From: Paenibacillaceae bacterium
GTDB taxonomy: Bacteria > Bacillota > Clostridia > Lachnospirales > Lachnospiraceae
Direction: 5' to 3'
NCBI GenBank assembly: GCA_015057705.1
Contig: SVDU01000014.1
Coordinates: 1-64,000, forward strand
Length of the DNA stretch: 64,000 nucleotides
Below, one piece after another: positions 36,553 through 47,462 of the stretch. The notes beneath the pieces are model-generated. The model was given only the letters and a program-made list of their open reading frames with translations. It was not told the origin of the DNA and ran no database searches. Position 1 is the stretch's first letter, and each line of letters starts with the position of its first letter. Made by a program: the position numbers and the translations under genes.

Positions 36553-36647
36553 GATCGTACCTCCATGGGTATAACTGGCTTCATTATAACGTTTTAATGA
36601 CCGGATATCAATATAGGATTAATGAGAAATGATATCAGTAAATGTTC

Positions 36648-36676
36648 TTGCTTTTTCTTAGATCTTGTGATATCAT
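36648..36676 (+). promoter_or_regulatory. promoter of candidate ncRNA copy 1
   Basis: TTGCTT-N17-TATCAT; predicted +1 at the A of the 5' hairpin, 7 nt downstream. Confidence 0.65.
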
Positions 36677-36682
36677 GAACTC

Positions 36683-36820
36683 AGTTAGCAATAACTAACT
36701 ACATGTGAATATTCTATACATCAGACTAACCCTCTGAGATTATCCTTCATTGACCCGTGAGGGATCATGACTCCTACAAAAAACCCGCCCCTGTAACCGC
36801 ATGACAGGGACGGGCTTTTT
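36683..36820 (+). ncRNA. candidate structured small RNA, copy 1 (family not recognised)
   Basis: Highly similar to 40461-40597; AGTTAG-N6-CTAACT hairpin, GACCCGTGAGGGATCATGACTCCTAC core, terminator hairpin with loop ACCGCATG; no ORF. Confidence 0.75.
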
Positions 36821-36827
36821 GGTTTTA

Positions 36828-39329
36828 TTACATTCCGATCATATCAAACTGTTGAAATGAAATCACAAGTCTGCTATCTTTTTTAGGATTCGGATATTTA
36901 ATCTGAATGGATTTTAATGTCTGGCTGTAGTACCAGCCGCAGTCTGCTGCCTCGAATTTTTTTCGATACAGGAAATGGGGCAATTCTTCGCCGTCTAGTG
37001 TAATCCAGAATGGTGCTTTGTCTATGCGAATTACATCTAAATAAATGCTTTCAACCGTAGTCTGATAGCTGCCCTCCTGCTTAAATTCCAAAACGGTCTG
37101 TTCACCAGAAGTCATTATAATTTCGGTCTTTAAATATTCTCCATTCTGATAATTTAATGTAGTGCCATCATCCTCGTAGAGTGTAAATGAATTGTCTTTA
37201 CCAGCAGCAAGCAGCAGGTGGATTCCCGTAACAATCTCGGTGGTTAAGTTATTCATCTGGTTTTCTGCCATAGGAATGATTGCGCCTTCCCGTACAAAGA
37301 GGGGAATGCTAGCCATTGTTACCGGGAACTCAAGAGTTTGTCCTCCCTCGAATCTTTCTCTGGTATAGAAATCATAGAACGTTTCCCCCTCGGGCAGATA
37401 GACGCTTCTTGTAAGAGCACCTTTTTCCACAATATTTGCTACCAGCAGCGAATCTCCGATCATAAAATCAATGCCCTCTTCATAACAGTCAGGATCATTC
37501 TGGAATGCGCTGCACATGGGTTCCATAATAGGCAATCCGGTTTCGTGGGCACGTTCCATAAGAGAGTACAGATAAGGGATCAGTCTGTAGCGGAACTTGA
37601 TGGCATCCCGGATATATCCGGTGTGATTTCCGTACATCCAGGGTTCTGTAACCGTATTATCTGTATTTACGGAGTGTACGGAAAATCTCGGCTGGAAAAT
37701 ACCGTTTTGAATCCAGCGAACCATCAGCTCTGCTTCCGGAGATGTACCGTAAAATCCGCCGATGTCACAGCCCTGATTTGCCACGCCGCTTAAACTCATG
37801 CCCAGTATGGTTGCAATGTTATATTTCAGTGAATCCCAGCAGGTTAAATTATCTCCAGCCCAGGTCTGAGCGTAGCGCTGAATTCCGCTGTGTCCGGACC
37901 GGCATACAATAAAAGGTCTGGTGTTGTCAAAGGTCTCATGAATGGCCTCATCAGTGATCTGGCACATGATATTGGACATTACGGATTTTAACTGGCCGAT
38001 TGTACCGCCTTTTCCTTCAAAATCACAGCGGCAGTCTTTGTCTACCATGCTGTCATATTCACAGTTATCGTTCCACACCGAGCAGGTTCCCATTTCCAGG
38101 ACATTTTCCTTTAACATTTCTTTCCATACGCTGCGGGTTACGGGCTTGGTGAAATCGGCGAAAACTCCCTTACCGCCCCACCAGGTACCAATGCCGGGCT
38201 CGTCGCTCTGGCTGTCTTTTACAAAGATATCTTTTGCTTTCATCTGTTCCAGATTGGGGTGGGAAAGAAGAATTCCAGGTTTTACATTTGGAGATACGGT
38301 AATTCCTCTTTTTTTCATCTGTGCAAAGAAGTCTCTTGGATTTTTAAAACGTTTTTCATTCCAGGTAAATACACAGCGTTTCACGCCCTGCTCCGTGTCC
38401 TGAGAGGTGTAACCGGAGGAAAGCTGGAAACCATCTACCGGGATATCCTCTTCTTTGGTTGTGTCAATAAACTCTGTGATTGCGTCATCACAGTCAGCCT
38501 CAAGCTCCGGATAATACATGGACGAGCCAAGATATCCAAGTGCATACCGGGGAAGCATGGCGGATTTACCGGTAAGATCGGTATACCCGGAAACAACCTC
38601 ACGAACAGAAGGACCGGCAATCAGGAATAAATCGATATCACCGCCGTCGGTACGATAACGGCTGTGAGGTTTCCAGTAATTGCTCTTTTCTCTTCCCATA
38701 TCAAAATCGCATTCATAAGTATTATGATAGAAATAACCCACTGCTTTTTTGGATTCGCGGTTTAATTTAATGTAAAACGGAATGTGCTTATACAGGGAAT
38801 CTGTTTCCTTTGGGTTATAACCCATGGCATCCTTGGGGCTCATGGATAGGAATTTCTGCGCTTTATTCCACTGCCCGCTCTTTTCCCCAAATCCATAGAA
38901 ACAGTCCTGGGGTGAAATTTCGCTGGTGTGAATCCGGCGATGATTGCTGTCCTCTAAATATCCAAGGTCTACAATATCAGAATGAAGGCAGGTGCCTTCT
39001 TTATCATAAACGCAGATACGGAATGGATCTTTTTCAATAATAACCTTTAACTGGGATCCGGTCAGAATGGCCTGTTCTCCGGTCTGACTGAGACTTGCAG
39101 TGGCTGGAACTACCCGCTTTCTCTGTCCTTTTAAAAGCCCGTCCATGCGGTCCTCCCATGCGGTCATAACCAGACTGTAGGATTCTTCCGCAAAATCACC
39201 GTCAAATCCAGCGCGGATTCTTAAAATGGTTTCTGTTAAAAACTGTACCCGGATCTCGATGGAATTGGTAATAATTTTAAAATACCCATCCATCTCCTTT
39301 ACTTCATTCACGTTTGTACATAGCTTCAT
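36828..39329 (-). CDS. glycoside hydrolase family 31 (alpha-glucosidase/alpha-xylosidase-like)
   Basis: YGFGEKSGQWNKAQKFLSMSPKDAMGYNP, GTCSVWNDNCEYD, WAGDNLTCWDSLKYNIATILGMSLSGVANQGCDIGGFYG. Confidence 0.92.
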   Translation of the reverse strand: MKLCTNVNEVKEMDGYFKIITNSIEIRVQFLTETILRIRAGFDGDFAEESYSLVMTAWEDRMDGLLKGQRKRVVPATASLSQTGEQAILTGSQLKVIIEKDPFRICVYDKEGTCLHSDIVDLGYLEDSNHRRIHTSEISPQDCFYGFGEKSGQWNKAQKFLSMSPKDAMGYNPKETDSLYKHIPFYIKLNRESKKAVGYFYHNTYECDFDMGREKSNYWKPHSRYRTDGGDIDLFLIAGPSVREVVSGYTDLTGKSAMLPRYALGYLGSSMYYPELEADCDDAITEFIDTTKEEDIPVDGFQLSSGYTSQDTEQGVKRCVFTWNEKRFKNPRDFFAQMKKRGITVSPNVKPGILLSHPNLEQMKAKDIFVKDSQSDEPGIGTWWGGKGVFADFTKPVTRSVWKEMLKENVLEMGTCSVWNDNCEYDSMVDKDCRCDFEGKGGTIGQLKSVMSNIMCQITDEAIHETFDNTRPFIVCRSGHSGIQRYAQTWAGDNLTCWDSLKYNIATILGMSLSGVANQGCDIGGFYGTSPEAELMVRWIQNGIFQPRFSVHSVNTDNTVTEPWMYGNHTGYIRDAIKFRYRLIPYLYSLMERAHETGLPIMEPMCSAFQNDPDCYEEGIDFMIGDSLLVANIVEKGALTRSVYLPEGETFYDFYTRERFEGGQTLEFPVTMASIPLFVREGAIIPMAENQMNNLTTEIVTGIHLLLAAGKDNSFTLYEDDGTTLNYQNGEYLKTEIIMTSGEQTVLEFKQEGSYQTTVESIYLDVIRIDKAPFWITLDGEELPHFLYRKKFEAADCGWYYSQTLKSIQIKYPNPKKDSRLVISFQQFDMIGM

Positions 39330-39597
39330 AAGGCATATACTCCTTTACTGTAATTCTAAAACAGGTTTGTGATATAATCATAAAGAAAACGGCAATCAAT
39401 TACTAGACTAAAATTGCAGACTGTCAGTCAAAACTATACATATCTTGCACTCTTTCAGAGGGAAATATGCCGGAAGCAGACGTAAACCTGGGGATAAATG
39501 AGCAAAATAGGTGTAGGATATATCAAAAAAGTGCAATTTTTGTCTAGTACTGAAAGACGAAGACGAATATAATGAAGGAAAAAAGGAGGATTCAACC

Positions 39598-40398
39598 ATG
39601 GCCAGTATGAATTGTCATTATTATAGTTATTCTTTAGGACATACCGTGGATGTTAATGTATTCGTACCAACACCAGAGGGGAATGAACAGATTACCAGTG
39701 AATCGGCAAAGAAAGCATTTCCTTATGAGAAAGGTCTGCCAGTTTTATATCTGCTTCATGGAGCGTTTGGAGATTACAGCTCCTGGATGCGTTTTTCCAA
39801 CATCGAGCGTTATGCTCAGAAGCATTGCTGTGTGGTAGTTATGGCGTCAGCGGAAAATAGCTTCTATCAGGATATGTACCATGGAAACCGTTACTTCACC
39901 TTCTTTTCAGAAGAGCTTCCTGGATTTATTAAAAGTATTTTTCCGGTTTCCAAAAGACGGGAGGATACCTTTGTAGCAGGACTGTCCATGGGAGGCTATG
40001 GAGCATGGTTTCTGGGACTGTCAAAACCGGAACAGTATGCAAAGGCTGCCAGTATGTCCGGTGCGCTTAATATTGTGAAAACCTTTGAGGAAATTAAAAA
40101 TGGATCAATTGATGGTCCGTTCCCCTGGAAAAATATTTTTGAAAATCCCGATGAGATTGCCGGAAGCAGTGCAGATCTGATGGTACTGTATGACCGCTGC
40201 GTAAAAGACGGAATTGTACCGGAGCTTTATCAGGCATGCGGAACGGAAGATTTCCTTTATGAAATGAATAAAGAAGTAAAGAAAATAATGGAAGAAAAGG
40301 GTGCTCATGTAATTTATGAGGAAGGACCGGGCAATCATAACTGGGATTTCTGGGATCAGTATATCAAGAATGTCCTGCAATGGATGCTTCCGGTTTAG
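39598..40398 (+). CDS. alpha/beta hydrolase, esterase D/tributyrin esterase family
   Basis: LPVLYLLHGAFGDYSSWMRFSNIERYAQ, VAGLSMGGYGAWFLGL nucleophile elbow, GPGNHNWDFWD. Confidence 0.92.
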   Translation: MASMNCHYYSYSLGHTVDVNVFVPTPEGNEQITSESAKKAFPYEKGLPVLYLLHGAFGDYSSWMRFSNIERYAQKHCCVVVMASAENSFYQDMYHGNRYFTFFSEELPGFIKSIFPVSKRREDTFVAGLSMGGYGAWFLGLSKPEQYAKAASMSGALNIVKTFEEIKNGSIDGPFPWKNIFENPDEIAGSSADLMVLYDRCVKDGIVPELYQACGTEDFLYEMNKEVKKIMEEKGAHVIYEEGPGNHNWDFWDQYIKNVLQWMLPV

Positions 40399-40425
40399 TT
40401 GAGAATTCTTACCTAAAAAGAGGGC

Positions 40426-40454
40426 TTGTTTTTTAAGAAACCTTATGATATTAT
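40426..40454 (+). promoter_or_regulatory. promoter of candidate ncRNA copy 2
   Basis: TTGTTT-N17-TATTAT; predicted +1 at same relative position as copy 1. Confidence 0.65.
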
Positions 40455-40460
40455 AATGAC

Positions 40461-40597
40461 AGTTAGTTAAACCTAACTGCGTGTGAATATTCTAACATCA
40501 GACTAACCCTCTGATTGCATCCTTCATTTGACCCGTGAGGGATCATGACTCCTACGAAAAAGCCGTACCTGTTACCGCATGACAGTACGGCTTTTTT
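40461..40597 (+). ncRNA. candidate structured small RNA, copy 2 (family not recognised)
   Basis: Same architecture as 36683-36820 with compensatory changes in the terminator stem. Confidence 0.78.
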
Positions 40598-40684
40598 GGT
40601 TATCTGGGTGCGGAATTGACGCCATTATCTGATAGTGCTATTATTGGGTTAATTCGTGGTATTTAAATAAAAAGGAGCGTGTAA

Positions 40685-42267: not shown

Positions 42268-42328
42268 CCTGATTTGTATTAGTAAGTCATGACTAACTAT
42301 GATATAGTTAACACCATAGCAAATCAGG
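42268..42328. promoter_or_regulatory. nested palindromes and promoter upstream of the Nik/Opp-type SBP; candidate LysR operator
   Basis: CCTGATTTG...CAAATCAGG outer arms; TTAGT-N8-ACTAA (42279-42296); AACTAT-gat-ATAGTT (42295-42309); TATGAT -10. Confidence 0.6.
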
Positions 42329-42338
42329 AGGAGCAATT

Positions 42339-43976
42339 ATGAAAAAAAGATTATTATATACCTGCCTTGCAGGAGTCATTTCTGCAGCACTTTTATCAGG
42401 GTGCCAGAAGCAGGCAGGCCAGGAGGCGGCAGCGACCGTCAAAGACCAGGCGAACACAGAAGCAGCAACTAAGGTATCAGAAGGGTCGTCAAAGGATGAG
42501 CTGGTATTTGTAAACTTCCGGGATATCAGAGATTTAAATCCACATTTGTATGCCGGAGAGATGTATGCCCAGGAGATGCTTTATGAGACGCTGGTCAATA
42601 TAACCCCTGAGGGTTATGCCCCCTGCCTGGCGGAAAGCTGGAACATAAGCGAAGACGGAAAGACCTATACATTCAAAATCAGGAAGGGTGTTACCTTCTC
42701 TGATGGTGAAGTGTGTGATGCCAATGCCATTAAGGCAAATTTTGATGCAATCATTGAAAACAAGGAACGTCATACATGGCTGGAAATGATGAATCTGCTG
42801 GTGGGAGTGTCCGCTCCTGATGCAGAAACCTTTGTCATTGAACTTTCCCAGCCTTATTATCCCATGCTGACAGAGCTTGGAGTTACAAGACCATTTGCAA
42901 TGATCTCTCCCAAGGCCATGAAAAATGGAAGCACAAAGGATGACGTGGAATCTTATATCGGGACAGGTCCTTATGTACTGAAGGAATCTGTTACAGACGA
43001 ATACGCTGTGTTTGAGGTCAATGAAAATTATTGGGGTGAGAAGCCGAAGGTGAAAAAGATCACCGTTAAGGTTATCCCGGATAACCAGACCCGTGTTCTG
43101 GCACTGGAAAAAGGCGAGGTTGATTTAATCTACGGAAAGAATATGATCGATGCTGATGCAGTGAACAAATATAAGGAAAGTGATAAGTTCTCTGTTTCTT
43201 TGTCTGATGCCACCTCTACCAGACAGATTGTAATTAATACCACCAATGATATTTTAAAGGATAAGACTGTGCGTCAGGCGATTCAGCATGCCACTAACCG
43301 CCAGGCAATCTCAGACGGTATCTTTTACGGGCTGGAAAAACCCGCTGATACGCTGTATTCCAATACAGTTCCTTACTGCAACGTTGGATTAACTCCCTAC
43401 GAGTTCAGCGAGGACAAAGCATCTAAGATGCTGGAAGAGAGCGGATGGGTTATGGGAAGTCAGAATGTGAGGGAAAAAGACGGAACGCCTCTTAAACTGA
43501 CTCTTTTATACAACAGCGACAGTGTTACGGAAAAGACCATTGCAGAATACCTTCAGTCTGAATATGGGAAGCTGGGAATCGGTCTGGAGATCAAAGGTGA
43601 AGAAGAACAGTCTTACCGTGACAACATGAAAGCAGGAAACTTTGACATGGTGTTTAACATCTGCTGGGGACTTCCTTATGATCCACAGTCTTCTCTGGCT
43701 GGAATGAGGCAGCGGGTATACGGGGACTACGCAGCTCAGCAGGGTCTTGCAGACAAGGCGGAGATTGATAAGGCAATTACGGAAATCATGGTATCTACAG
43801 ATAAAGAAAAGCGTCAGGAGCTGTACCGCTTTGTGCTGACCAGGCTTCATGAGGATGCAGTATATATTCCTCTTACTTATGAGTGTAATAAGGCAATCTA
43901 CAGGTCAGATTTAAAAGGTGTTGGATTTACCCAGACCCAGTATGAAGTGCCCTTTGCCCAGATGTATTTTGAATAA
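42339..43976 (+). CDS. nickel/peptide-type ABC transporter substrate-binding lipoprotein
   Basis: Lipobox LLSGCQK; NLNPHLYAGEMYAQEMLYETLVNITPEGYAPCLAESWNISEDGKTYTFKIRKGVTFSDG. Confidence 0.93.
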   Translation: MKKRLLYTCLAGVISAALLSGCQKQAGQEAAATVKDQANTEAATKVSEGSSKDELVFVNFRDIRDLNPHLYAGEMYAQEMLYETLVNITPEGYAPCLAESWNISEDGKTYTFKIRKGVTFSDGEVCDANAIKANFDAIIENKERHTWLEMMNLLVGVSAPDAETFVIELSQPYYPMLTELGVTRPFAMISPKAMKNGSTKDDVESYIGTGPYVLKESVTDEYAVFEVNENYWGEKPKVKKITVKVIPDNQTRVLALEKGEVDLIYGKNMIDADAVNKYKESDKFSVSLSDATSTRQIVINTTNDILKDKTVRQAIQHATNRQAISDGIFYGLEKPADTLYSNTVPYCNVGLTPYEFSEDKASKMLEESGWVMGSQNVREKDGTPLKLTLLYNSDSVTEKTIAEYLQSEYGKLGIGLEIKGEEEQSYRDNMKAGNFDMVFNICWGLPYDPQSSLAGMRQRVYGDYAAQQGLADKAEIDKAITEIMVSTDKEKRQELYRFVLTRLHEDAVYIPLTYECNKAIYRSDLKGVGFTQTQYEVPFAQMYFE

Positions 43977-43993
43977 TTTCCGGGAGGGATTTA

Positions 43994-44050
43994 AAACATG
44001 GGAAATACCGGCTGCCTGTATGTCAGGCTGCCGGTTTCCCATGTTTTTTC
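43994..44050 (+). terminator. intra-operon terminator/attenuator between SBP and permease
   Basis: AACATGGGAAA ta CCGGC ... GCCGG TTTCCCATGTT TTTT. Confidence 0.8.
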
Positions 44051-44082
44051 ATACCTTTCCCATCTAAAATGGAGGCGTTATT

Positions 44083-45024
44083 ATGAAGTCCTATATTGTG
44101 AAACGAATTCTGTCAGCGATTCCCCTGCTGCTCATGATTTCATTTTTGTGCTTTGTGTTTATCAATATGATTCCTTCTGACCCGGCAGAGGTAGCATTAA
44201 GGGTCCGTCAGACACCGGTTATTACAGAAGATGCCATCTTGCAGGTCAGGGAGGAACTGGGGTTAAATGATCCCTATCTGGTCCGGTATCTGCGCTGGGT
44301 GGGGAACTGTCTGAAGCTGGATTTCGGTGTAAGCTATACCAATCCTTCCAGAACGGTTCTGGGAGAGATTTCCAGATGCTTTCCGGCAACCTTTGTACTT
44401 GCCATGTCTTCTCTGGTGATTGTAATCGTTTTAAGTCTACCCATAGGTTTCTTTTGTGCCGTCTATAAGGACAGCCTGTTTGACCGGATCGTGAGGGGGA
44501 TTGTATTTATGACAACTGCCATGCCGGCTTACTGGGTTGGGCTTCTTTTGATCTGGCTCATCAGTATTAAGTGGGATCTCCTTCCTACCAGCGGAAGCGG
44601 TACCATAAAGCACTTGATTCTGCCTTCCCTTACAGTAGCACTCACCTATATTTCCACTTACATAAGGCTGATCCGCAACAATATGCTGGAAAATATGAAA
44701 GAAGATTACGTTTTGTATGCCAATGTAAGGGGGTTAAAGCAGAGCACCATTCTGGTAAGGCATATTCTAAAGAACTCCCTTCATACCTGTATTGTGGCAA
44801 TTGGAATGAGCGTACCTCAGCTGATGGCTGGAACCATCGTAGTGGAAAATGTTTTCGCATGGCCCGGGCTGGGGAAACTATGCATTGCTTCAATATTCAA
44901 CCGGGACTATCCGGTAATTCAGACCTATGTGCTTTTAATCGGAACACTGTTAGTGGTATTTAACCTTCTGTTTGATATCATTCAGAGCATTGCTGATCCA
45001 AGACTTCGAAGGGAGGTATCCTAG
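44083..45024 (+). CDS. nickel/peptide ABC transporter permease (NikB/DppB type)
   Basis: MKSYIVKRILSAIPLLLMISFLCFVFINMIPSDPAEVALR; VENVFAWPGLGKLCIASIFNRDYPVIQ. Confidence 0.94.
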   Translation: MKSYIVKRILSAIPLLLMISFLCFVFINMIPSDPAEVALRVRQTPVITEDAILQVREELGLNDPYLVRYLRWVGNCLKLDFGVSYTNPSRTVLGEISRCFPATFVLAMSSLVIVIVLSLPIGFFCAVYKDSLFDRIVRGIVFMTTAMPAYWVGLLLIWLISIKWDLLPTSGSGTIKHLILPSLTVALTYISTYIRLIRNNMLENMKEDYVLYANVRGLKQSTILVRHILKNSLHTCIVAIGMSVPQLMAGTIVVENVFAWPGLGKLCIASIFNRDYPVIQTYVLLIGTLLVVFNLLFDIIQSIADPRLRREVS

Positions 45025-45025
45025 G

Positions 45026-45850
45026 ATGTGGAACCGTTTTCTTAAAAACAAAATGGCTGTGATCATGATGGGATTTCTTGCTGTCATAGCGTTAGCCGGT
45101 GTATTTGCTCCGATTCTGGCTCCCAATGATCCTTATACAAACGATATTTTAAATAAGTTTGCAGGATTCAGTCTCAAGTATCCGTTAGGAACCGATCAGC
45201 TGGGGCGGTGCATTCTCTCCAGAATGATATATGGTATCCGGCCCACCTTATTTTTATCTCTTCTGACCATGACAGGGACTATCGGGCTTGGTTGTATCCT
45301 GGGACTTTCAGCCGGATATTTCAGAGGTCCGGTGGAGGAAATTATCATGAGGGCGGTGGATGTGATGATGTCATTTCCCAGTCAGATCATGGTATTTGCC
45401 GTAGTGGCTCTTTTGGGAGTGGATGTGCGCAATGTAATACTTGCCAATGTGCTGATTAAATGGGCATGGTATGCCAGAATGATCCGTACCAACGTTATGA
45501 AATACAGAGATAAAAATTTCGTTCTGTTTTCCAGATGTGTCGGAAGCGGGGAACCGTTTATTCTTTTTCGCCACCTGCTTCCCAGCATTGCATCGGAAAT
45601 GGCGGTACTGGCGACTCTGGATATCGGCTGGGCTATTTTAAATATCTCCACTCTTTCCTTTTTGGGGCTGGGTGTTCAGGCGCCTACACCGGAATGGGGA
45701 GCAATGCTTAACGAAGCGAAAAATGTTATGACGACCAATCCCGTCCAGATGATCGCACCTGGTCTTGCTATTGTAATCGTAGTGGCTGCTTTTAACTTAC
45801 TGGGAGATGCCCTGCGGGATGCCCTGGATCCGAAGGAGGTGGAACTATAA
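45026..45850 (+). CDS. nickel/peptide ABC transporter permease (NikC/DppC type)
   Basis: YPLGTDQLGRCILSRMIYGIRPTLFLSLL, NISTLSFLGLGVQAPTPEWGAMLNEAKN. Confidence 0.94.
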   Translation: MWNRFLKNKMAVIMMGFLAVIALAGVFAPILAPNDPYTNDILNKFAGFSLKYPLGTDQLGRCILSRMIYGIRPTLFLSLLTMTGTIGLGCILGLSAGYFRGPVEEIIMRAVDVMMSFPSQIMVFAVVALLGVDVRNVILANVLIKWAWYARMIRTNVMKYRDKNFVLFSRCVGSGEPFILFRHLLPSIASEMAVLATLDIGWAILNISTLSFLGLGVQAPTPEWGAMLNEAKNVMTTNPVQMIAPGLAIVIVVAAFNLLGDALRDALDPKEVEL

Positions 45851-46680
45851 TGGAGCCAGTTTTAGAGGTAAAAAACCTGGCGGTGGAGCACCGCAGGAAG
45901 AACCGGATACAGCCCATTATTGAGGGCATTGATTTTAAAGTGTTTCCGGGACAGTGCCTGGGAATTCTAGGAGAAAGCGGCAGCGGAAAGAGTATGAGCT
46001 TAAAAGCGGTCATGGGGCTTTTGGGTGCTGACTTTTCCGTAACAGGAGAAGCTCATTTTCAGGGTGAGAATTTAATTGGAAAAACAAAGGAACAGCTTCG
46101 GCGGATCAGAGGAAAAAGTGTTGCCATGATTCTGCAAAATCCCATGACCTGCTTTGATCCCTTATACCGGATTGAAGACCAGCTGTCAGAAACCTACAGA
46201 CAACATACCCAGCTGACTAAGAAGGAAATATATGAAAAATCACTGTCAGTTCTTACTGCCATGCAGATAAAAAATCCGGAAGAGGTTATTAAAAAATATC
46301 CTCATCAGCTGAGCGGAGGTATGCTTCAGCGGATTATGATTGGTCTTGCCATGTCCATAGAGCCGGATCTTTTGATCGCGGATGAGCCGACTACCGCCAT
46401 TGATGCCATTACTCAGTTTGAAATCATGAAGGAATTTATCCGGATTAAAAAAGAGTCCGATACAGCCATGATTTTCATCAGCCACGATCTTGGTGTGCTC
46501 TCTGCAGTCTCTGATGAGGTTCTTGTACTGAACAGGGGGAAAATGGCAGATCAGGGGACGTTCCGCCAGATATATGAACAGCCCAAGGATCCTTACACCC
46601 GCCTTCTGGTAGAAAAAAAGAAAGCGGTGATGGATCAGTATCACAGATCTCTTGGGAGAAAAGGAGTGATAAGCCAATGA
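45850..46680 (+). CDS. ABC transporter ATP-binding protein (NikD/DppD type)
   Basis: GILGESGSGKSMSLKAVMGLLG, LSGGMLQRIMIGLAMSIEPDLLIADEPTTAID. Confidence 0.94.
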   Translation: MEPVLEVKNLAVEHRRKNRIQPIIEGIDFKVFPGQCLGILGESGSGKSMSLKAVMGLLGADFSVTGEAHFQGENLIGKTKEQLRRIRGKSVAMILQNPMTCFDPLYRIEDQLSETYRQHTQLTKKEIYEKSLSVLTAMQIKNPEEVIKKYPHQLSGGMLQRIMIGLAMSIEPDLLIADEPTTAIDAITQFEIMKEFIRIKKESDTAMIFISHDLGVLSAVSDEVLVLNRGKMADQGTFRQIYEQPKDPYTRLLVEKKKAVMDQYHRSLGRKGVISQ

Positions 46681-47462
46681 TAAAAGCAGAGCATATTGAC
46701 GTCAGCTTTAAAAAGGAGAACCAGACAACCCTGTTTGGAAGGGAACGTCAGCAGGTACTGTTCGACGTATCCTTTGAGGTGAAGAAAGGGCAGTGCCTGG
46801 GTATTCTGGGTGAGAGCGGAAGCGGAAAAAGCACTCTGGGAAGAGTTTTATGCGGGCTTTTAAAGCCTGATAAAGGAAATGTCCTCTTTGAGGGAGCCAA
46901 AAAAGCGGTGATCAGCGTAGTATTTCAGGATTACACCACCTCGGCAAATCCCAGGTTCACAGTAAAAAGCCTGATTGGTGAAGGGCTGATGGCAAGAGAA
47001 AAACGAGAAAGAAAAGCGGTAGACCGCAGGGTAGAGACCAGTCAGCTTTTAAAACTGGTGGGACTCGATGAAAGCTATTTACAGAGACTTCCTCATGAAC
47101 TCAGCGGAGGCCAGCTCCAGCGCGTCTGCATTGCCAGAGCACTGGCTGTAAATCCGGAGGTTATTTTGTTTGACGAAGCAATTAGCTCCTTAGATGCCCA
47201 TACTCAGGTTCAGATCATGGATCTGTTAAAGGAGATACAGAAGGAAAAGGGGCTGACCTATATTTTTATCACCCACGACTTAACCTCTGTCACCTATTTA
47301 TGCAGTCATGTACTGTTCCTTTACAAGGGAAGAGCGGTGGAAATAAGAGAGACAGAAACAATCAGTGAGGTTAGTCATTCTTACGCAAAGAAACTGTTAA
47401 ATGCAATTCTTGACGTGGAGGAAACCAATGAGCCGAAGGTCCCTGACCAGGCTGTTTCATAG
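46677..47462 (+). CDS. ABC transporter ATP-binding protein (NikE/DppF type)
   Basis: GILGESGSGKSTLGRVLCGLLKPDKG, LSGGQLQRVCIARALAVNPEVILFDEAISSLD. Confidence 0.94.
   Translation: MIKAEHIDVSFKKENQTTLFGRERQQVLFDVSFEVKKGQCLGILGESGSGKSTLGRVLCGLLKPDKGNVLFEGAKKAVISVVFQDYTTSANPRFTVKSLIGEGLMAREKRERKAVDRRVETSQLLKLVGLDESYLQRLPHELSGGQLQRVCIARALAVNPEVILFDEAISSLDAHTQVQIMDLLKEIQKEKGLTYIFITHDLTSVTYLCSHVLFLYKGRAVEIRETETISEVSHSYAKKLLNAILDVEETNEPKVPDQAVS

Follow-up and report, generated by a model that had tools for sequence, protein, structure and literature searches.

Two copies of a small RNA (sRNA) gene lie in a 64,000-nucleotide (nt) stretch of Lachnospiraceae DNA (GenBank assembly GCA_015057705.1, "Paenibacillaceae bacterium", contig SVDU01000014.1, positions 1 to 64,000; the whole stretch is hereafter called the window). 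They probably specify an iron-repressed, iron-sparing sRNA, controlled by DtxR-type repression at an operator on the transcription start site and acting by pairing with translation start sites and blocking translation. In the proposed mechanism, each copy would be an independent gene specifying a regulatory RNA of ~138 nt. As long as the metal (most likely iron) is abundant, the palindrome AGTTAGN6CTAACT at the start site would be occupied by a DtxR-family repressor and transcription would be blocked; when iron is scarce, the repressor would leave and the RNA would be made. The seed CRUGUGAAUAUUCU, a UGACCC loop, and an ACUCCUA segment would then pair with the Shine-Dalgarno/AUG regions of messenger RNAs (mRNAs) and block their translation; some of these mRNAs encode iron proteins, e.g., desulfoferrodoxin, and iron would thus be spared. 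The evidence consists of the gene architecture, a conserved hairpin, the operator and its regulon, wide and independent placement of the copies, and an excess of seed complements at start sites; from it we infer the identity of the repressor, that iron is the signal, that the genes are transcribed, and that translation of the targets is repressed. Iron sparing via start-site pairing is the best-supported mechanism, though not a proven one.

A preliminary description of the window had reported two paralogues with long shared blocks. Alignment bore this out: the copies (Table 1) are 82-83% identical over ~160-178 bp (E-values 3.7e-41 and 5.1e-40), and in the whole 4.53-Mb genome BLAST detected no copies besides these two. 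The described -35/-10 pairs with a 17-bp spacer are found in both, and a TTGNNN-17-TANNNT promoter is present in all 57 distinct copies collected from the window and the pattern scan described below. Each RNA ends, as had been proposed, in an intrinsic terminator. The absence of a convincing open reading frame (ORF) was likewise confirmed. We give almost no credence to the idea that the RNA is a messenger for a very small protein: short ATG-started frames, e.g., MTPTKNPPL, do occur in some copies, but they run into the terminator stem, the ATG is absent from many copies, and a conserved small ORF was rejected because the frames are not conserved.

The family had not been recognized in the preliminary description, and covariance models of Rfam 15, those of the known iron sRNAs held there included, gave no match at the gathering threshold for either copy; at E ≤ 10, only chance matches were returned (snoJ33 and Thr_leader, both sub-threshold). 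Twelve divergent homologous loci were also without an Rfam match. The covariance-model search that had been suggested returned further copies in the same family as the host. By DNA search and the first covariance model, same-genus genomes with a match carry two copies (three in one case), and genomes elsewhere a single one. Scanning of GTDB genomes with the pattern GTTAGN6CTAACN2-4RTGTGAAYATYC yielded 48 stretches, almost all with a Lachnospiraceae or Clostridiales label; the carriers include Lacrimispora, Hungatella, [Clostridium] aerotolerans, Brotaphodocola, and uncultured relatives. In Hungatella effluvii (L097:7151-7301), the RNA body is apparently split by ~100 nt with a repeated CTTAGTGAG/TCTTTCACGA motif, the 5' end and the 3' half being still recognizable.

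More than ten unrelated neighbourhoods hold the RNA. Its neighbours in various genomes (mostly identified by sequence reading) are trmL-like, aldo/keto reductase, cyclopropane-synthase-like, GH31/esterase, DUF3793-flavodoxin, GerA-like, and other genes. Both paralogues stand in direct tandem, 207 nt apart, in Clostridium sp. HBUAS56010 (L105:977-1323), with neither GH31 nor esterase gene between them; together with the varied neighbours, this indicates that the RNA is not tied to the carbohydrate genes of the window. A cis-acting leader or attenuator for neighbouring genes is very unlikely. Copy 2 lies 90 nt 5' of a plus-strand methyltransferase gene, as such a leader might, but copy 1 faces a convergent gene (the minus-strand GH31 gene at 36828-39329, as previously noted), each RNA has its own intrinsic terminator, and the RNA remains the same from genome to genome but its neighbours do not. 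Across the neighbourhoods, the RNA was not found to hold a conserved position 5' of, and co-directional with, a single gene family, as a cis-leader or riboswitch would. Since they occupy many unrelated intergenic neighbourhoods, the copies are very likely autonomous sRNAs, presumably acting in trans. The earlier view of sibling autonomous sRNAs of an undescribed family is thus supported by the 57 copies, the promoters and terminators, the diversity of neighbourhoods, the lack of an Rfam family, and a covarying hairpin.

Compared with shuffled sequences, folding of copies 1 and 2 gave z-scores of -4.95 and -5.46, respectively (0/200 shuffles each). For the central hairpin, an alignment of 37 distinct copies was evaluated. 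Each of the five counted pairs has changed on both sides without loss of pairing, with a total of 28 both-side-changed cells vs 9.4 in shuffled alignments (0/500), and slid controls were all far lower. Judging by this covariation, the hairpin with the UGACCC loop is a real RNA hairpin. The segments proposed to pair with mRNAs are predicted to be accessible: the mean unpaired probability is 0.88 for ACUCCU, 0.74 for the UGACCC loop, and 0.64 for CRUGUGAAUAUUC, vs 0.40 overall. The corresponding values in copy 1 are 0.96 for ACUCCU and 0.71 for AUGUGAAUAUUC of region A, the seed segment.

The sequence AGTTAG-N6-CTAACT at the predicted +1 had been described as a 5' hairpin. While the palindrome is real, its conservation and genome-wide distribution fit a DNA operator rather than a hairpin. 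Five of the six arm pairs never vary in the aligned copies and the six-base spacer varies freely, a pattern typical of DNA sites bound by proteins; the palindrome may additionally form a hairpin in the RNA. Among the pattern hits, the conservation of the palindrome and region A is partly built in, the scan pattern requiring the former and part of the latter, and it is independently backed by copies found with BLAST and the covariance model, where neither was required. A second perfect TTAGN6CTAA overlaps the promoter in 23 of the 57 copies; it is decayed in Lacrimispora.

With no more than one mismatch, AGTTAGN6CTAACT occurs at 22 sites in this genome (six of them exact), vs 10 for the reversed control. 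Exact palindromes are located 42 bp 5' of a siderophore-type periplasmic-binding protein gene in an ABC operon, and in a feoAB/Fur cluster. Two more siderophore-type ABC operons are preceded by the palindrome, as are genes for SOD, AhpC, an ABC exporter, a ZIP transporter, and a DtxR-family protein. In genomes of relatives, it is found 5' of DUF3793-flavodoxin operons; one of these genomes has such an operon, complete with a palindrome, directly 3' of the RNA. The use of flavodoxin in place of ferredoxin is a textbook mark of iron limitation. Because the palindrome recurs before metal-homeostasis genes, it is likely a DtxR-type iron-repressor operator placed on the start site, and the RNA is likely under the control of a DtxR-type metal repressor.

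The same RNA anatomy would be seen if the repressor were manganese-responsive (MntR-like) or dual, with targets in oxidative stress and Mn/Fe exchange, an alternative that we consider unlikely. DtxR-family members sense manganese as well as iron, and the presence of SOD and AhpC among the operator genes, fitting either metal alike, also speaks against a purely iron-based view. Three DtxR/MntR-family proteins are encoded in this genome, two of which score best against MntR structures, and SOD, AhpC, and desulfoferrodoxin are oxidative-defence genes. However, the clearest operator genes (feoAB, the siderophore-type ABC operons, and the flavodoxin operons of relatives) are iron genes, and the third DtxR-family regulator, which has an operator-like site 5' of its own gene, matches SloR and IdeR best.

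Several further observations concern the palindrome. A one-mismatch site at L048:5956-5973 lies ~240 bp 5' of a DtxR-family gene (L048:6212-6661), where a short His-containing ORF preceding this gene starts; autoregulation of the gene is possible. A third operator-like site in the window, AGTAAGTCATGACTAACT (42281-42298, one mismatch), is found ~40 bp 5' of an operon for a substrate-binding protein and an ABC transporter of the dipeptide/nickel type (42339-47462), which may also be metal-regulated. Exact sites at L042:3993-4010 and L044:3943-3960 adjoin a glyoxalase-like gene and small unassigned ORFs, with no obvious iron gene. Matches of 22-37 nt returned by BLAST from other genomes were rejected as RNA copies; where inspected (L008 and L011), they were operator sites. 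DUF3793 proteins adjoin flavodoxin behind the palindrome, or adjoin the RNA (L008, L011, L007, L088, and L093), which suggests a role for DUF3793 in iron limitation; a literature search on DUF3793 with flavodoxin produced nothing relevant.

The sequence CRUGUGAAUAUUCU appears to be a near-invariant seed complementary to AGGAGTATTCACATG-type start sites. The complement of region A, AGAATATTCACATG, comprises the Shine-Dalgarno side, the spacer, and the AUG. The seed position opposite the U of AUG is A or G among the copies, and both should be able to pair; the A-to-G change in copy 2 would retain a G-U pair at this position. Targets were predicted with regions A, B, and C and hairpin 1, using start sites from half of this genome and 40 shuffles. 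Region C (AUCAUGACUCCUACGAAA) outperformed all, or nearly all, of the shuffles in pairing with ribosome-binding sites, which is expected since it is an anti-Shine-Dalgarno segment; pairings of the hairpin 1 loop, the UGACCC loop, and the terminator loop with these start sites were no better than shuffles. Desulfoferrodoxin ranked second among the region A pairings in this genome. Its pairing was kept in all five Lacrimispora tested, including the orthologues of four further same-genus genomes, with ten continuous pairs across TATTCACATG, while other leader bases differ.

Seed complements are also enriched across genomes. Ten genomes with the RNA contain 46 matches to RRRRNTATTCAYATG, vs 23 for reversed controls, and sixteen further genomes with the RNA contain 24 matches to RRRRNTATTCACATG, vs one. 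In a family sample, a RRRRNTATTCACATG match was found in 139 of 397 genomes. The density of RRRRNTATTCACATG is ~0.44 per Mb in genomes with the RNA (52 matches in 28 genomes) vs ~0.15 per Mb in genomes without a detected copy (~173 in 388), a class called by strict filters that may include carriers of divergent copies. The resulting enrichment in RNA-carrying genomes is ~2.9-fold, with rough Poisson probabilities, kinship ignored, of ~5e-11 for all genomes and 4e-5 for the sixteen alone. The start-site matches that could be read represent roughly twelve gene families, four of them related to iron: those of desulfoferrodoxin, an aconitase-family hydratase, a rubredoxin-type NADH oxidoreductase, and a NifU-like protein. 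For each of the latter three, an uninterrupted run of 14 pairs with the seed is possible. Counting Fe-S proteins by a simple motif proved too insensitive and was dropped.

Not all of the pairing data favour iron sparing, and the composition of the comparison class just mentioned is one reservation. In this genome, region A exceeded shuffles in the strongest tail only (1/40 at the top 5, 8/40 at the top 20), and the seed complement overlaps generic start-site sequence in part. The aconitase, rubredoxin-reductase, and NifU-like pairings were each found in one genome only, and a good pairing with fumarase alpha in this genome was absent in all relatives and was dropped. Many candidate targets (GNAT, tyrosine phosphatase, fucose-isomerase-like, DUF6198, and lactonase-like genes) are unrelated to iron. 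The last point would also be accommodated if the iron-regulated RNA acted by binding a protein, as a sponge for a chaperone or regulator, and the invariant 5' segment were a protein site and not a seed. The near-perfect invariance of region A across divergent species, odd for a seed whose targets change, fits this idea too, but complements of region A are enriched at the start sites of RNA-carrying genomes, the desulfoferrodoxin pairing survives despite changes in the flanking leader bases, and region C is simply an anti-Shine-Dalgarno segment. Protein binding therefore seems to us a distinctly improbable mode of action, and start-site pairing is preferred.

Coordinates of the features in the window are collected in Table 1. 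An element TGAKAAWTnnTTTCR, which resembles a Fur box in part, is conserved 5' of the -35 box in both window copies and, at -59 to -61, in others. The most Fur-like window of a copy is located at these positions in 33 of 55 cases.

Table 1. Features of the two sRNA genes in the window.
Feature	Position	Strand	Remarks
Copy 1, small RNA	36683..36821	+	~138 nt
Copy 1, promoter	36648..36676	+	-35 TTGCTT (36648-36653), 17-bp spacer, -10 TATCAT (36671-36676)
Copy 1, upstream element	36623..36637	+	TGAGAAATGATATCA; at -60, partly Fur-box-like
Copy 1, DtxR-type putative operator	36683..36700	.	AGTTAGCAATAACTAACT; on predicted +1; exact in genome scan
Copy 1, region A (putative seed)	36701..36722	+	ACAUGUGAAUAUUCUAUACAUC; near-invariant in 37 aligned copies
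Copy 1, central hairpin	36743..36764	+	UCCUUCA-loop(UUGACCCG)-UGAGGGA; covariation
Copy 1, region C	36764..36777	+	AUCAUGACUCCUAC; unpaired, anti-Shine-Dalgarno
Copy 1, intrinsic terminator	36777..36821	+	CCGCAUGA in loop
Copy 2, small RNA	40461..40599	+	~138 nt
Copy 2, promoter	40426..40454	+	-35 TTGTTT (40426-40431), 17-bp spacer, -10 TATTAT (40449-40454)
Copy 2, upstream element	40400..40414	+	TGAGAATTCTTACCT; at -61
Copy 2, DtxR-type putative operator	40461..40478	.	AGTTAGTTAAACCTAACT; on predicted +1
Copy 2, region A (putative seed)	40479..40494	+	GCGUGUGAAUAUUCUA; A-to-G change
Copy 2, central hairpin	40520..40542	+	loop UUUGACCCG
Copy 2, region C	40542..40555	+	AUCAUGACUCCUAC
Copy 2, intrinsic terminator	40555..40599	+	

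Iron-sparing sRNAs are known from Proteobacteria, Bacillus, Staphylococcus, and mycobacteria. Clostridia, which dominate in the gut, have an energy metabolism built on iron-sulfur enzymes; our literature search for a clostridial DtxR or iron sRNA returned nothing relevant. With slightly less than even confidence, we propose that the RNA represents the first iron-sparing sRNA family of Clostridia, one controlled by a DtxR-type repressor and not by Fur, whose fixed seed would read AUG, spacer, and Shine-Dalgarno sequence as a unit, and whose targets would be recruited by evolving a TATTCACATG start site. With a conserved candidate that has DtxR-type control and a readable seed, iron control at the post-transcriptional level can be tested directly in Lachnospiraceae. 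The RNA probably helps gut and soil Clostridia to economize iron under scarcity, the same regulatory logic having been arrived at with a different repressor family and an RNA that is apparently unrelated.

Of the known iron-responsive sRNAs, FsrA binds Shine-Dalgarno sequences via a C-rich motif; IsrR has stem-loops, single-stranded C-rich regions, a terminator, Fur boxes, and Fe-S protein targets; MrsI is predicted to be controlled by IdeR; and the three have neither sequence nor synteny in common (PMC9410917). The RNA described here resembles FsrA of Bacillus subtilis, which is Fur-repressed, in its Firmicute host, single promoter with a putative iron operator, C-rich motif, and proposed iron-protein targets. 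Unlike FsrA, to which there is no Rfam sequence match, it has a putative DtxR-type operator at the start site, a different structure, and a proposed AUG-facing seed. With the Fur-repressed IsrR of Staphylococcus it shares stem-loops, single-stranded C-rich regions, a terminator, and, as proposed here, iron operators at the promoter and Fe-S protein targets, but the two are not homologous: IsrR is 174 nt long and has Fur boxes, whereas the present RNA has a DtxR-type palindrome. The predicted iron sensor of mycobacterial MrsI, IdeR, is a DtxR-family repressor, as is the candidate regulator of the present RNA; MrsI, however, is actinobacterial and without detectable Rfam relationship to it. RyhB and PrrF1/PrrF2 of Proteobacteria follow the same iron-sparing logic, and PrrF is also a pair of paralogues (PMC9410917), but these RNAs are controlled by Fur and differ in sequence and structure. 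The tandem paralogues of Clostridium sp. HBUAS56010 recall PrrF1/PrrF2. In the Cia-dependent csRNAs and other Gram-positive sRNAs with C-rich loops, unpaired CUCC/CCC motifs target ribosome-binding sites, as proposed here; their regulators are different, and no sequence relation to them was found. On the best reading of these sequence comparisons, the present RNA would be a functional analogue of FsrA, IsrR, and MrsI that forms a separate family of apparently separate origin.

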